45,555 nt of DNA from a virus. Below the pieces are notes generated by a model that was not told where the DNA came from, ran no database searches, and saw only the letters and a program-made list of their open reading frames with translations. The translations under genes were made by a program, and so were the position numbers. Of this stretch, positions 12,534 to 44,733 are shown one piece after another. Where the stretch lies: IMG/VR virus record IMGVR_UViG_3300035157_000888, positions 1 to 45,555 of that record, one strand, 5' to 3'. The number at the start of each line of letters is the position of its first letter. Position 1 is the stretch's first letter.

Positions 12534-15500
12534 TTAGGATCTAATTTGTGTCTGATACTCAATAGACTTGATTTTATAAGATGCTCCACCATTACCAACG
12601 ATGTTTTCACCGCTAGTAATTGCTTGCAATATTGCTCCAGCTCCAGTGGTATCTCCACCACCATTGGTTACAGTTATGGTTGGATGTAAGTTATAAGTGC
12701 CATCTACATATGGAACAATTCCATATCCACCATTAGTAATAGTTACAGAGGCAATTTGGTCTCCAGCAGTAGTCATATTAACTGTTCCTGTTGCTTGGAT
12801 ATCACCAATATCCTCAACTGCAATAGTAGGAACTTGAGTGTAATCAGCTCCAGGATCCAGTACAATAAAGTCAGTTACAGTTCCTTTCTCTGAGAATGAA
12901 TACAACTTACCATTAACACCCTTGTTAACATCACCAGTATCAAATGGGACAATATCCTTTACAGTTAATACACTTCTAGCATTATCCCAAGAAACTACTG
13001 TTGCTTGAATTTGGGAGTATTGTCCAGTAACAACTTCATTAACACTAAAGTTTAATCCATTACCGTAAAGAGGATCAACGGTAATTTCAACTATAGCAGC
13101 ATGAGGTCGGCCTTCATTAAGAGCACCTGCTTCAATAACAGTTGCAAACTTAAGTGGAGTAGATCCATCCTTAAGACTTTCTCCCACCTGGAATAAAGTA
13201 GTATTTTGTCCACCTTGTGTTTCTTCAACACCATAAAGAGAACTATGAATACCACCATCAAGACTTATTTGATTGACATACGCAGTTCCAGTATTTACAA
13301 GATCTGGTATACCATCTCCTAGACCCTCTAATTCATCATCATCTTCAAATTTTCTGTCTTGTAAAACTGTAATTGGAACAGTTAAAGCTGTAATATTATC
13401 ACCAGTAGATGTTAATATCACATGTGGTTGGAATGAAGAACTTGCACTTCCAGGAGTACCAGCATCAAATTGCACAATTGTATCTTCTGTAGAAGGTATA
13501 CCAGCATCAATAAATGCCAATTCATCAACTTCAAAAGTTACCAATAATTCTCTATTAAATGGATTCCAATCATAAACCTTAGCAATTTTATTATTAGAGT
13601 TTTCAATACTTCTTATAACTCTATCACCAACACTATATGTGTATGTTGATACTTGATTTTCATCATTTTGTCCAGTATCTAAAACAACCCTTTGGTCATA
13701 TCTAAAGTTTACTCCTCTAGTTAAACCTGTAAATTTTTGTGGTCCTTTTGATGCATAACTAATAGTTTCCTGATCAATTATAATCGATCCTGATCCAGGG
13801 AAAGCACCAGTAGACCTTACATATATTGTATCATCAGAAGCAGTAACTTCTTTCAATAATCCAGTTAAGAAGAATGATTCTGATGCTTGAGACTGTCTTG
13901 CTCTTGCTTTTCTCTTTAAATCAACAAGTTTCTGGAAAATTACATTAGGTTCAGTTGTATACCCTCCACCAGGATCAATAATGTCAACACCAATAACAGA
14001 ACCTTGAGAGATTCTTGCAACAGCTTTTGCTCCTAATCCTCCTCCACCTGTAATTAAAATATAAGGAGCTTCAGCATAAAATTCTCCTGGATCAACTACA
14101 CTTATATTAGTTAGTTTTCCTGTAACATCTATAGATGCAGCTCCAGTTGCCCCTTGACCACCGCCACCTTCAAAAATAAGAGATGGTGGAGTTAAGAAAT
14201 TTCTTCCATCAGTTAATAATGTTAAACCAGTAACAGTTTGGACAGTTGGTGTAACTGTTGCTCCAGTACCTTCTCCACCAAGTATTGTTGCTTGAGTAGG
14301 ACCGAAGTATCCATCTCCAGTTTTAACCATTTTAATAAAATCAATTGCACCATCATTAACATTAACTTTACCTTCAGCACCAAAAGGAAATTCTGATGCA
14401 ACAGTAGGTAATGTATCTCCTTCAAATATTGGAGCTCCATAAAGTTTTGGACCTACAACATATGGATATACAGGATTGCCACTACCATCTTCAGTCATGA
14501 AATAGCAATATGTGCCATTAGGATATTCTGGAGTTGAAGCAAAAATACCGTTTTGTTCATCAAGTAATCCAAGACCTTCTTCATATATGTAATCTTGTGT
14601 GAAATCACCCATTACATATCCATTATTAACTAAACGATATCCAACCTCTGTGCCACTATATGAGAATGCATATATGACTGTTGGTGCATCTACTTTCGAT
14701 TCATATTGAATAGATCTTGTAGTAGCAGTAGTAAATCCACTAATATATGATTGATACTGTACTTCTAATCCATTAATAAAATATTTTACTCCACTAGAAA
14801 AAACATAACTGGTGTCACCAATATCTGTAGATTGTCCTGTAGAATGCCAACCATCTTCAGTAGTACTAAACAATCCTATGTAACCATCATTTGATGCATC
14901 ATCTAAATTGAATGTATATGTCTTCCCTCTATCAAGATTTAAAACTTCTAATAATTGTCCACCAATTAAAAACTTTCCATTAGAAACAGTTATTGTATGT
15001 GAAACACTGCCAGTTGTTGTTTGTGCAGGTCTATTACCATCAACTTCAACACCAGTCTTCAATCTAAATGAAGATGTCATTCTTCCTATAGTAGTGTTAT
15101 TAGTATATCCATAAGGTCCATATATTGGATATCCATCAAATGACATTCCTAAAATTTTAGAATGTCCATTAGCATGTCTACTGTAATCTGGTGTTCCACC
15201 ATCATCATAAAAATCAGTTATGTAATAATCGTTTGGAAGAGGATCATTATCAATCTCTGAATCAAATGTTATATACCCTTCATTACCAGTATAACCAGAC
15301 ATGTGAGTATGATAAGCACAATAATAATAAATTCTTGATGTTTCATCAGCGTTCATTATGAACAATGCCTGATATTCATTCTCATAATCTGCAGCAGGTG
15401 CTCCTGATGCTCCAGTGCTATTGTAATATACAGCACCAGCATTATGAGTACCATCAGCAGTTGTACTAAATCTCATAGGATGAGACATTGGTGCTTGATT

Positions 15501-16682
15501 AGAAGCATCACTTTGATCCCAAATAATCAAATAATTTCTTTGAACTTTAATATCTTCTGGTGCAAAATAATATTCTCCAGGAGTAAAGTTACCAAATTCA
15601 GCAGCATCTGGACCAAACTCAATATAAAAAATACCAGTTGGAAAAGCTAATGGATCTCCAGAAATTGTAAAATAGAATCCATTAGATCCGATAATTCTAT
15701 CATTACGATTAAATGTTCCACCAACCAATCTTAAATATACTCTTGTGCAAACTCCACTACCATCTCTAACAACTTTTGCAACTTCTGCAACTCCATCACC
15801 ATTAATAACACTTACTGTTCTTCCAACTTCTATTGGTGTACCACCATTATTTTCTTCTGTGCTGACTACATTCAGCATTATATTATCAATTTCTGTTTTT
15901 ACTTTCCAAGTAAATGGTCTTATAAATCCATTTTCAAATGCACCATTATCCTGTGCAAGTTGATTAATTAATTTACTAGACTGATAATAATATTGTTGAG
16001 TATCTATAACACCATCAAATTCATCAGATGATTTGAGATAACCATGTTTTACTGTATCAATATCAAAATTGGTTGGTGCTCCACCCAATGCTCCCCATTC
16101 TGGTGTATGTAATAGAACACCATTAGCCATTACACCTACTGCTTTATTTCTTTGAAATTCTCTTAATTCAGGATTTGGAACTTCTTTACCACCTCTATAG
16201 ATGAATTGTTGATTGAAAGTATCATCTGTTAAAGTAGATCCACCACCAGGAACTCTTAGGTTTTCAGTTGTAATATTGGAAGGTTTTGGATCACCATCTG
16301 TTTGTATTGTTAACCTATCTGTATCTGTAGCAAAGGTACCAGTAGTACTAGAATTTGGATTAGATTGCCATATTCTATTAACATCAAAAGAAGTTACAAC
16401 ATTAGGTGTATCTTGTAAAGGAGTTATAGAAACACGCAATGGATCATAACCCAATCCAGGTTCTAAAACCCGTACATGAATAATTTTACCAGAGTCATCA
16501 TCAATAATTGGATATAATAACGCTTCTTCTGTAGGAGTACCACAACCAGTAATTGTAAGTCTAGGTGGATCTGCACTTTCGTATTCCTTACCCCCTTCAA
16601 TTACTTTGACTGCTTTTATGCCAAAGACTTTATTGAATAAAGGCTCAATTACTGCTCCAGATCCAGGTACTGTTCTTGCCAT
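12534..16682 (-). CDS. Large virion protein with cupredoxin-like and YHYH-like domains (1382 aa)
   Basis: The N-terminus (MARTVPGSGAVIEPLFNKVF, then SADPPRLTITGCGTPTEEAL) resembles, from memory, structural proteins of T4-like cyanophages. Residues of about 385-470 resemble a cupredoxin: His400 in SHPMRFS and a C-x2-H-x2-M motif at about 455-461 (YYYCAYHTHMSG). Residues of about 510-750 form a YHYH-like domain (MSFDGYPIYGPYGY, then GTYCYFMTEDGSGNPVYPYV). Residues of about 780-920 are Gly-rich GSGYT repeats. Further on are a RG-type module (QETISYASKGPQKFTGLTRG) and a 'TSGA'-like module (QIQATVVSWDNARSVLTVKD). The start is four bases downstream of the 408-residue gene, so the two are probably co-transcribed from the promoter at 17933-17940. 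No signal peptide is seen. A baseplate-associated structural role is inferred from context; function is unknown. Confidence 0.88.
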   Translation of the reverse strand: MARTVPGSGAVIEPLFNKVFGIKAVKVIEGGKEYESADPPRLTITGCGTPTEEALLYPIIDDDSGKIIHVRVLEPGLGYDPLRVSITPLQDTPNVVTSFDVNRIWQSNPNSSTTGTFATDTDRLTIQTDGDPKPSNITTENLRVPGGGSTLTDDTFNQQFIYRGGKEVPNPELREFQRNKAVGVMANGVLLHTPEWGALGGAPTNFDIDTVKHGYLKSSDEFDGVIDTQQYYYQSSKLINQLAQDNGAFENGFIRPFTWKVKTEIDNIMLNVVSTEENNGGTPIEVGRTVSVINGDGVAEVAKVVRDGSGVCTRVYLRLVGGTFNRNDRIIGSNGFYFTISGDPLAFPTGIFYIEFGPDAAEFGNFTPGEYYFAPEDIKVQRNYLIIWDQSDASNQAPMSHPMRFSTTADGTHNAGAVYYNSTGASGAPAADYENEYQALFIMNADETSRIYYYCAYHTHMSGYTGNEGYITFDSEIDNDPLPNDYYITDFYDDGGTPDYSRHANGHSKILGMSFDGYPIYGPYGYTNNTTIGRMTSSFRLKTGVEVDGNRPAQTTTGSVSHTITVSNGKFLIGGQLLEVLNLDRGKTYTFNLDDASNDGYIGLFSTTEDGWHSTGQSTDIGDTSYVFSSGVKYFINGLEVQYQSYISGFTTATTRSIQYESKVDAPTVIYAFSYSGTEVGYRLVNNGYVMGDFTQDYIYEEGLGLLDEQNGIFASTPEYPNGTYCYFMTEDGSGNPVYPYVVGPKLYGAPIFEGDTLPTVASEFPFGAEGKVNVNDGAIDFIKMVKTGDGYFGPTQATILGGEGTGATVTPTVQTVTGLTLLTDGRNFLTPPSLIFEGGGGQGATGAASIDVTGKLTNISVVDPGEFYAEAPYILITGGGGLGAKAVARISQGSVIGVDIIDPGGGYTTEPNVIFQKLVDLKRKARARQSQASESFFLTGLLKEVTASDDTIYVRSTGAFPGSGSIIIDQETISYASKGPQKFTGLTRGVNFRYDQRVVLDTGQNDENQVSTYTYSVGDRVIRSIENSNNKIAKVYDWNPFNRELLVTFEVDELAFIDAGIPSTEDTIVQFDAGTPGSASSSFQPHVILTSTGDNITALTVPITVLQDRKFEDDDELEGLGDGIPDLVNTGTAYVNQISLDGGIHSSLYGVEETQGGQNTTLFQVGESLKDGSTPLKFATVIEAGALNEGRPHAAIVEITVDPLYGNGLNFSVNEVVTGQYSQIQATVVSWDNARSVLTVKDIVPFDTGDVNKGVNGKLYSFSEKGTVTDFIVLDPGADYTQVPTIAVEDIGDIQATGTVNMTTAGDQIASVTITNGGYGIVPYVDGTYNLHPTITVTNGGGDTTGAGAILQAITSGENIVGNGGASYKIKSIEYQTQIRS
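13920..14345 (-). repeat. GSGYT-type Gly-rich repeats in the 1382-residue protein
   Basis: About four units at residues 780-920 of the product, including GLTLLTDGRNFLTPPSLIFE, LTNISVVDPGEFYAEAPYIL and VIGVDIIDPGGGYTTEPNVI, each followed by a GGGGxGAxAxA stretch. They are the same unit type as in gp8 and the 7860-residue protein. Confidence 0.8.
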
Positions 16683-16686
16683 TTAA

Positions 16687-17913
16687 TTATGAGACAATGT
16701 TAATAACACCATTCATCAACGCATGAATTGTGCATTGGTAATATAAAACGTTTGGTGCGTCCATAGGGACGGTAAAGTATAATATATTGCTTCCACTACC
16801 AGTTTGACCATCTGTATATGGTGCTCCCTGTAAACCTTGTGAGGTCTGTATTCTAAATGGATGGTTACCACCATTTACACTATTATCAAACGCATAAGTA
16901 AATCCTCTATAAAGATAGAGATCAGGATCATTAGTTGCACTAGCAAATCCAGGTCCAGCAAAAGTAAAGTGAGAAGATCCATCAGATCCTAAATCCCACC
17001 AAATAATTGGACTTGAAGTTCTTACCCAACTAAGACCATCATAAAATAATGAATTACCCTGAGCAAGACCAGCAGTATTAGTATCTGTTAAACCTGCAAA
17101 GGTTGTAATAGGACTACCATTAAAGTCAATTGTTAATGTATCTCCAACAACACTAGTAACAATATCATTACCTCCAGTAACAGTTAATGTATCTGAAGAA
17201 CTATCGGCAGTTGTAGATCCTGTGTCACCAGCAACTGTAGCAAATAAGTTAACATTTGATAAACCAGCATCATCTGGAGCAGGTATCCACTTACTATCTG
17301 TAGCATTCCATTTAAGAACTTGGTTTGCTGTAGGAGCAGTAGTAGTTGTATCTACATCTGCTAAACCATCAATACTAGTATATTCTGTTAAAAGTTTTGC
17401 TCTCGTATTACCAACACCACCTGTTGTAATATTAATGTTTACATATGGATTATCATCACCATTAACAGTGAAAAAGTATCCTGGAAAATCTGCAGGAACA
17501 GGAGATGCAGCTAATGAAGTATATTCACCTTTATGTCTTAAAAGAGCAGGTATATCAATTGCACCATTTACTCCAAGAAATGTAGATGTAATTCCACCAA
17601 CTGTTAATTGAAGATTGCCAGTACCATTTGGTGCAATTACAATATTGCCATTACCAGATGAAATAATTGAATTGTTATTTACATCTAGGGATGATGTAAG
17701 AGCACTATAATCAGATGCAACAAATCCTGATCCATCATAACGTAATACTTGCCCTGTACCAGCATTAGTCACACTAACCTGAGTAGCAACACCATTTCCT
17801 ATGGCACTATACAATTCTGTAAAGTTGTCATTTATTTTGTCACCGCCAACACGGAGGGTATCTCCAGTATTATCCCCTGCGGATGAACCTATTCCTATTA
17901 CTTGCTTGGCCAT
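16687..17913 (-). CDS. Fibre-like virion protein with C-terminal cupredoxin-like domain (408 aa)
   Basis: The N-terminus (GSSAGDNTGDTLRVGGDKIN, then DNFTELYSAIGNG) is a common head segment of phage tail fibre and collar-like proteins. The middle (about 40-300) is Thr/Ser/Asn-rich with short strand repeats. The last 90 residues resemble a single-domain cupredoxin: strand and loop PDLYLYRGFTYAFDNSVN, His351 in NHPFRI, then Cys394, His397 and Met400 in YYQCTIHALMNG. This His...C-x2-H-x2-M arrangement is like a type 1 copper site, although plastocyanin has C-x2-H-x4-M. Copper binding is not shown. There is no signal peptide, as expected for a virion protein. It has its own late promoter just upstream and is followed four bases later by the 1382-residue gene, which carries a similar motif. 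Possible role: accessory baseplate fibre. Confidence 0.88.
   Translation of the reverse strand: MAKQVIGIGSSAGDNTGDTLRVGGDKINDNFTELYSAIGNGVATQVSVTNAGTGQVLRYDGSGFVASDYSALTSSLDVNNNSIISSGNGNIVIAPNGTGNLQLTVGGITSTFLGVNGAIDIPALLRHKGEYTSLAASPVPADFPGYFFTVNGDDNPYVNINITTGGVGNTRAKLLTEYTSIDGLADVDTTTTAPTANQVLKWNATDSKWIPAPDDAGLSNVNLFATVAGDTGSTTADSSSDTLTVTGGNDIVTSVVGDTLTIDFNGSPITTFAGLTDTNTAGLAQGNSLFYDGLSWVRTSSPIIWWDLGSDGSSHFTFAGPGFASATNDPDLYLYRGFTYAFDNSVNGGNHPFRIQTSQGLQGAPYTDGQTGSGSNILYFTVPMDAPNVLYYQCTIHALMNGVINIVS
16700..16965 (-). other. Cupredoxin-like domain of the 408-residue protein
   Basis: Codes for about residues 320-405. Candidate ligands are His351, Cys394, His397 and Met400. The distance from the first His to the Cys (43 residues) is close to plastocyanin (47). 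The strand pattern RGFTYAFDN ... HPFRI ... ILYFTVPMDAP ... LYYQC fits a Greek-key cupredoxin. Only sequence resemblance supports this. Confidence 0.6.
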
Positions 17914-44229: not shown

Positions 44230-44733
44230 TTAAACTCCGATAAAAACATTAGGTGATCCCGTTGCAATCTTTGATAAACAAGGAGGTCCGAGTGGATCAC
44301 CCACTCTACCTGCTCGTTTCTTATTAAAGAACACGGTTTTGGTTGTTGCAAAGCACTTTCTAATATGAGCTCCACCACCAGCAATATCTTCCGTACACAA
44401 AGTTTGTGTAGGGCAATCAAGAGGAGGGGGTGGGTGTTTGCAACCTGCTCTTATTACCTTATTTGTGCAAGATGGTGGATGATTAGTTAAAAGATCTTGA
44501 TCGACAATAGGAAAATTGCCGTTAATAACAACGTTACCCACAATTTGCATCACATTGAGAGGTGTTTGAGCAAATGGAGGCCATATATTAGTGGCATCCA
44601 TCGCTGCAATATTCTTTTTAGGTGCAGATTTACATGTTCCACCGCAACTAACTACCGCATGAACATTAGCTGGAATGCAACGCCCATGTCCACTACAACT
44701 TCCTATGTAAACTGCTGCTGATAATCCTGCCAT
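44230..44733 (-). CDS. PAAR-domain baseplate spike tip protein (gp5.4-like)
   Basis: The 167-residue product shows PAAR features: repeated Gly/Pro turns, a scattered Cys/His set (GSCSGHGRC, SCGGTCKS, CKHPPPPLDCP, TEDIAGGGAHIRKC), and the closing FFNKKRAGRVGDPLGPPCLS with the terminal SPNVFIGV common to PAAR proteins. PAAR proteins cap the central spike of contractile tails and usually hold a metal ion that sharpens the tip; T4 gp5.4 is the analogue. It starts one base after the upstream stop and is followed three bases later by the 48-residue gene. The N-terminal half is Cys-rich for such a protein. The metal ligands cannot be assigned by eye. Confidence 0.88.
   Translation of the reverse strand: MAGLSAAVYIGSCSGHGRCIPANVHAVVSCGGTCKSAPKKNIAAMDATNIWPPFAQTPLNVMQIVGNVVINGNFPIVDQDLLTNHPPSCTNKVIRAGCKHPPPPLDCPTQTLCTEDIAGGGAHIRKCFATTKTVFFNKKRAGRVGDPLGPPCLSKIATGSPNVFIGV

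Follow-up and report, generated by a model that had tools for sequence, protein, structure and literature searches.

Does the 408-amino-acid protein encoded in this stretch of viral DNA end in a cupredoxin domain with a copper site, and what might such a site do on a virus particle?

The locus and the identity of the protein

The whole stretch of DNA that was analysed (hereafter the window) is a 45.6-kb virus record which carries a T4-like baseplate cluster on its minus strand. The cluster encodes a wedge subunit (PHROG 719), a PAAR protein, gp25, gp6, a giant ORF of 7860 amino acids, the 408-amino-acid protein, a gp10-like protein of 1382 amino acids, gp8 and a 2445-amino-acid protein of unknown function. 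The closest database relatives of the region are the Prochlorococcus and Synechococcus myoviruses P-SSM7, syn9 and MS29 (approximately 70% DNA identity), and because these are its nearest relatives the virus was assigned as a cyanophage of the Kyanoviridae type. The features with which the analysis is chiefly concerned are:

16687-17913, minus strand: 408-amino-acid baseplate wedge/tail-fibre connector protein (cyanophage 'gp9'; PHROG 677, E 1.8e-183; Pfam T4_gp9_10_N)
16690-17007, minus strand: predicted C-terminal cupredoxin domain of that protein, residues 303-408 (AlphaFold2 and Foldseek)

The reading frame from 16687 to 17913 is open and encodes 408 amino acids, of which residues 3-59 match Pfam T4_gp9_10_N (E 6.7e-7; 30 bits against a cut-off of 25). 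Against the PDB, the N-terminus matched T4 gp10 (E 7.9e-6) and, weakly, gp9 (E 0.031). Together with the neighbouring gp6, gp25, gp8 and PAAR genes, this domain identifies the product as a baseplate wedge protein of the T4 gp9/gp10 type. The first-pass annotation, which had been made without database searches, had called the protein fibre-like; this is corrected here, as it belongs to the baseplate-wedge/tail-fibre-connector family (PHROG 677) and is not a free fibre. The likeness to T4 gp9/gp10 is confined to the N-terminal 60 or so residues and leaves the cupredoxin domain outside the match, while in T4-like Aeromonas phages only the N-terminal 41 residues were matched.

Two neighbours were also observed. 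The 7860-amino-acid protein is encoded by a single open frame (17944-41526, minus strand) which lies between gp6 and the connector gene and occupies half of the window; many GxGYT-type repeats and a YHYH-like stretch were seen in it by eye. The PAAR-like protein (44230-44733, minus strand; PHROG 281) adjoins the gp25/gp6 genes.

Predicted fold of the C-terminal domain

The C-terminal domain was modelled with AlphaFold2 from an alignment of 66 relatives taken from the window and from IMG/VR contigs (alignment A4). The model is all beta (mean pLDDT 95.9, pTM 0.88), with a strand that starts directly after a His-Pro pair (His351-Pro352). When it was compared with the PDB using Foldseek, 16 matches were obtained at E <=0.001, 15 of which were to CuNIR, rusticyanin, AcoP or pseudoazurin, one of the last carrying an engineered amicyanin loop; the remaining match was to a laccase, which also has the cupredoxin fold, so that all 16 are copper proteins. 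Amicyanin was next in the list (E 1.6e-3, TM approximately 0.53). TM-scores to solved cupredoxins reached only 0.5-0.57, which is moderate, as expected for a distant relative. Among viral models the best matches were other cyanophage connectors and tail fibres, with TM-scores of up to 0.92.

The cupredoxin fold is shown as a prediction, and we consider it very likely that the domain has this fold with an intact site; this rests on the model, from which no ligand distances were obtained. The range given to the motif in the first-pass annotation (16700-16965) held in part, as the domain begins slightly upstream, at approximately residue 303 (approximately position 17007).

The same fold was seen in two 'Beta-sandwich proteins' of pithovirus-/marseillevirus-like giant viruses (BFVD A0A481Z6J5 and A0A481YWX9; E 4e-7 and 1.6e-6, respectively).

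Predicted copper-site residues and relation to known cupredoxins

The first-pass annotation had proposed a cupredoxin-like copper-site motif at the C-terminus of the protein, formed by His351 followed by C394-x2-H397-x2-M400, with 43 residues between His351 and Cys394. The motif is confirmed, on stronger evidence than had been assumed, and its four residues, their positions and the 43-residue distance all held. The residues are encoded as follows:

16861-16863, minus strand: His351, predicted first copper ligand (invariant in 66 relatives; falls on the N-terminal His of amicyanin/plastocyanin)
16732-16734, minus strand: Cys394, predicted copper thiolate ligand (invariant in 66 aligned relatives)
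16723-16725, minus strand: His397, predicted second His ligand (invariant in 66 aligned relatives)
16714-16716, minus strand: Met400, predicted axial ligand (invariant in 66 relatives; 68 of 68 in the first alignment)

The domain has the ligand order His...Cys-x2-His-x(2-4)-Met, with the first His just ahead of a strand. Cys394 is the sole cysteine of the protein, which contains only four histidines; a disulphide role for it was rejected, as there is no other cysteine with which it could pair. A shuffled proteome of the window would be expected to contain H-x(34-60)-C-x2-H-x2-M 0.0015 times. Within the actual proteome C-x2-H-x2-M is seen twice, in the 408-amino-acid protein and in the neighbouring 1382-amino-acid protein, each time with an upstream His in range.

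The relation of the domain to known cupredoxins at the level of sequence is seen by profile only. Single-sequence searches of Pfam and the PDB with the domain returned nothing significant, and no Pfam or NCBIfam model covers it above its cut-off. Pfam matches to DUF1942, At5g54830 and ribosomal L31 were weak and below cut-off and were set aside. The cut-off of the amicyanin equivalog TIGR02657 was not reached; the window domain has no NCBIfam match, and in one relative the score was 15, where 110 is required. When 16 divergent relatives were combined into a profile, its PDB matches were nitrite reductase (1.7e-6), amicyanin (2.4e-5), plastocyanin (8.8e-5) and rusticyanin (5.6e-4). The profile placed His351 on the N-terminal His of amicyanin, and aligned the Cys, His and Met with the C-H-M of the amicyanin and nitrite reductase loops. 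In a second profile the first His and the C-H-M of the domain aligned one to one with the plastocyanin ligands. Weak E-values in the A4 profile search are not specific, given that penicillin acylase was also returned (E 0.004); that match was judged spurious, as it spans profile positions 8-89 only and leaves out the Cys-His-Met loop.

Amicyanin of the Paracoccus type (PDB 1aac, 1sf3; profile E 2e-5 to 3e-3) has the same ligand order and the same C-x2-H-x2-M loop, with a His-Cys spacing of 39 compared to 43 in the domain. It is a free periplasmic electron carrier of approximately 105 amino acids, whereas the domain described here is the C-terminal part of a virion protein. The four ligands of plastocyanin (PDB 1pla, 2plt) align one to one with those of the domain, while its Cys-Met spacing is 8 compared to 6, and its His-to-Cys distance (47, as cited in the first-pass annotation) compares with 43. 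The first-pass annotation had suspected that the site might be inactive, as the Cys-to-Met spacing is unlike that of plastocyanin; this doubt is removed, as C-x2-H-x2-M is the amicyanin spacing. The domain is distinct from the host-derived petE plastocyanin gene carried by some cyanophages (PMC2984593). The best fold matches, three-domain copper nitrite reductase and rusticyanin, are an enzyme and an acidophile electron carrier, respectively, and neither occurs in a virion context.

The identity and order of the putative ligands are shown. That they form a complete, type-1-like mononuclear copper site with an amicyanin-type loop is a prediction from the model which we hold, jointly with the cupredoxin fold, to be very likely; that the metal is copper is inferred. 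It could be objected that the motif is an accident on an unrelated beta-sandwich which is no cupredoxin, as beta-sandwiches are common in phage fibres and single-sequence searches were not significant. Against this, the fold search, the profile search and conservation all agree on a cupredoxin, and the objection is all but excluded.

Probable further copies in the neighbouring baseplate protein

The neighbouring gene was found to contain two further regions related to the domain:

12534-16682, minus strand: 1382-amino-acid baseplate wedge subunit (gp10-like; PHROG 708, E 0) with a YHYH domain (Pfam, E 2.7e-20, two stretches)
15264-15569, minus strand: second cupredoxin-like domain, residues 372-473 (approximate) of that protein, with His401, Cys455, His458 and Met461
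14628-15020, minus strand: third, ligand-free copy, residues 555-685 (approximate), with partial weak matches to the domain profile

Across 67 relatives the H, C and H of the second domain never vary, and the M is invariant in 66. It matches the profile of the 408-amino-acid protein's domain only weakly (domain E 8.5e-5 to 3e-4), and its model (pLDDT 88.8) gave no Foldseek match below E 0.1. A second copper site is thus probable and has not been shown, as there is no significant fold match. The third copy lies in the interval that separates the two YHYH matches, and in the window it lacks a Cys/His/Met ligand set; S-RIM14 and ACG-2014d hold H, C, H and M at this position. An additional ligand-bearing copy was noted in two further loci (L075 and L027).

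Conservation and loss of the ligand set

Invariant residues occupy 8 of the 109 columns of the 66-sequence alignment (H351, P352, Y391, Y392, C394, H397, M400 and G402), and all four ligands are among them (chance P =1.3e-5). Over all loci, 224 of 228 complete distinct copies keep the full His, Cys, His and Met set. This census is partly biased, as the peptide patterns used to retrieve some of the loci contain part of the motif; records from the tblastn phage searches, and extra copies in flanking sequence, are free of this bias. There were four exceptions. Phage S-B43 lacks the His, the Cys and the second His, all three lost together, and keeps the Met; one copy in locus L109 has lost the whole set and reads G-D-D-C; another copy in L109 retains His and Met without the Cys-x2-His; and one bacterial copy lacks the first His only. 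The S-B43 copy lies in a tail fibre (L083, 1950-2279) and is a natural ligand-free variant of the domain.

Conservation of the ligands as a set is shown, and joint gain or loss of the ligands is the behaviour predicted for a metal site. A predicted fold other than a cupredoxin, or ligands not conserved in homologues, would have refuted the first-pass reading; a cupredoxin was found and the ligands are conserved, so it stands. Its interpretation as a type 1 copper site is supported by the predicted fold and by conservation, in the absence of ligand distances and with copper occupancy inferred.

An alternative is that the site holds zinc, or is empty, and that folding is the reason for conserving the residues. 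Soft metals other than copper can occupy C/H/H/M sites, and the protein folds in a copper-poor cytoplasm; in addition, the third copy in the 1382-amino-acid protein keeps related sequence without the ligand set. However, ligands required only for folding should often be lost singly, yet all four are retained in 224 of 228 copies, and in the S-B43 copy three have gone at once. We regard this alternative as unlikely.

Distribution in phages and bacteria

At E <=1, a tblastn search with the domain returned 354 phage records, of which almost all are from cyanophages, and a freshwater-type copy used as query returned 348 at E <=0.01. When whole cyanophage genomes were searched by profile, each of 14 contained between one and four copies; these 14 records had been picked because each already had a match. 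Copies are located in connectors, in proximal tail fibres, in an S-TIM5 gene close to the portal and in the P-HM1 gp7 protein, and also in the podovirus P-GSP1 and in a tail fibre of the Pelagibacter phage Baldr. Bacterial copies were found in Flavobacterium, PS1-clade and acidobacterial proteins.

Two bacterial arrangements were observed in passing: a Flavobacterium protein (L190, 3780-5312) has three CHRD domains ahead of the domain, and both of the subtypes known from the phage occur, as one copy each, in an OCS116-cluster protein (L179, 3772-5055).

The domain is placed at the end of, or within, different virion and bacterial proteins, which fits a portable surface module. Since it is spread over fibres, connectors, podoviruses and bacterial proteins, it appears to be a general module of exposed proteins that is tied neither to photosynthesis nor to contraction. 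The idea of a host-plastocyanin mimic tied to photosynthesis was disfavoured, as the domain is also present in a Pelagibacter phage and in non-photosynthetic bacteria.

These locations also bear on a redox alternative, in which a Cu(II)/Cu(I) switch on meeting a reducing host surface would act as a trigger or electron carrier. In its favour, electron-transfer cupredoxins use this ligand set, and most of the fold is less strictly conserved than the ligands. Against it, the gene neighbourhood revealed neither a partner protein nor a redox cofactor, and the presence of the module in fibres, a podovirus and a pelagiphage means that its occurrence does not depend on a photosynthetic host or a contractile tail. 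This alternative is considered unlikely. The redox or receptor-binding role raised as a possibility in the first-pass annotation remains conjecture, as there are no functional data.

Proposed role of the domain

The best explanation overall, and a likely one, is a cupredoxin with a copper site on the baseplate connector. In this explanation the N-terminal gp9/gp10-type domain would anchor the 408-amino-acid protein to the baseplate wedge, with the cupredoxin at the far end. Since the cytoplasm in which the protein is synthesised holds copper at low levels, copper would be taken up during or after lysis. The metal would then fasten the C-terminal loop, which runs from C394 to M400 and stops eight residues short of the end, to the beta-sandwich, and the fastened loop would form a stiff, outward-facing knob that makes protein contacts with either tail fibres or the host surface. 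That the site is loaded, that the domain is exposed and that it serves as a knob are all inferred. It is likely that the domain binds copper when copper is available, for which there are no binding data, and virus particles probably carry copper, which is likewise inferred and not measured in virions. For the structural or adhesive knob as proposed our confidence is lower, and we would lean slightly against it.

Free copper in the open ocean is very low, which counts against copper loading. The literature searched contained no report of copper having been measured in such virions. The virion proteome of S-CREM2 lists baseplate wedge proteins (PMC10665884), and particles of S-TIM4 have been analysed by mass spectrometry (PMC6224464), although the gp9 of S-TIM4 is not named in the main text of that paper.

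A further alternative is that the domain is bait, a metal-bearing tip that docks on a host copper- or metal-uptake receptor, by analogy with the 'Ferrojan horse' proposed for iron. Iron-binding HxH sites in the tail fibres of marine phages have been discussed (PMC11705849), and the baseplate protein here bears an independent and more complete predicted metal site. However, a type-1 site buries its metal and is poor for handing it over, and this alternative appears very unlikely. The HxH tail-fibre tips likewise place a metal-binding site in the phage host-contact apparatus, while their metal site, fold and protein differ from those of the cupredoxin domain.

A bolder extension of the copper-site explanation would make T4-like cyanophage baseplates copper-loaded machines, with two ligand-complete sites on neighbouring wedge proteins. 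It would give tens of type-1-like coppers per particle (if T4 copy numbers hold), acting in host recognition or contraction triggering; we consider it unlikely.

Novelty and significance

Full-text literature searches for phage cupredoxins or for blue copper in virions returned nothing relevant. The fold and the type of site are known; what appears to be new is their placement in phage virion proteins, the extent of that placement and the absence of a curated model. It is possible that InterPro superfamily assignments already tag some of these proteins as cupredoxin-like.

The hosts of cyanomyoviruses are the most abundant photosynthetic cells of the ocean, and the domain is present in several hundred cyanomyovirus records, on a baseplate protein common to most T4-like viruses of marine cyanobacteria. 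If copper is held, the phage baseplate has an unsuspected metal cofactor and the debate on iron in phage tails gains a second metal; if the bolder reading were true, these viruses would be a copper-binding component of seawater. Even if the domain is purely structural, a name for it would give an annotation to an unidentified region that recurs across hundreds of structural proteins of phages and in bacterial proteins.
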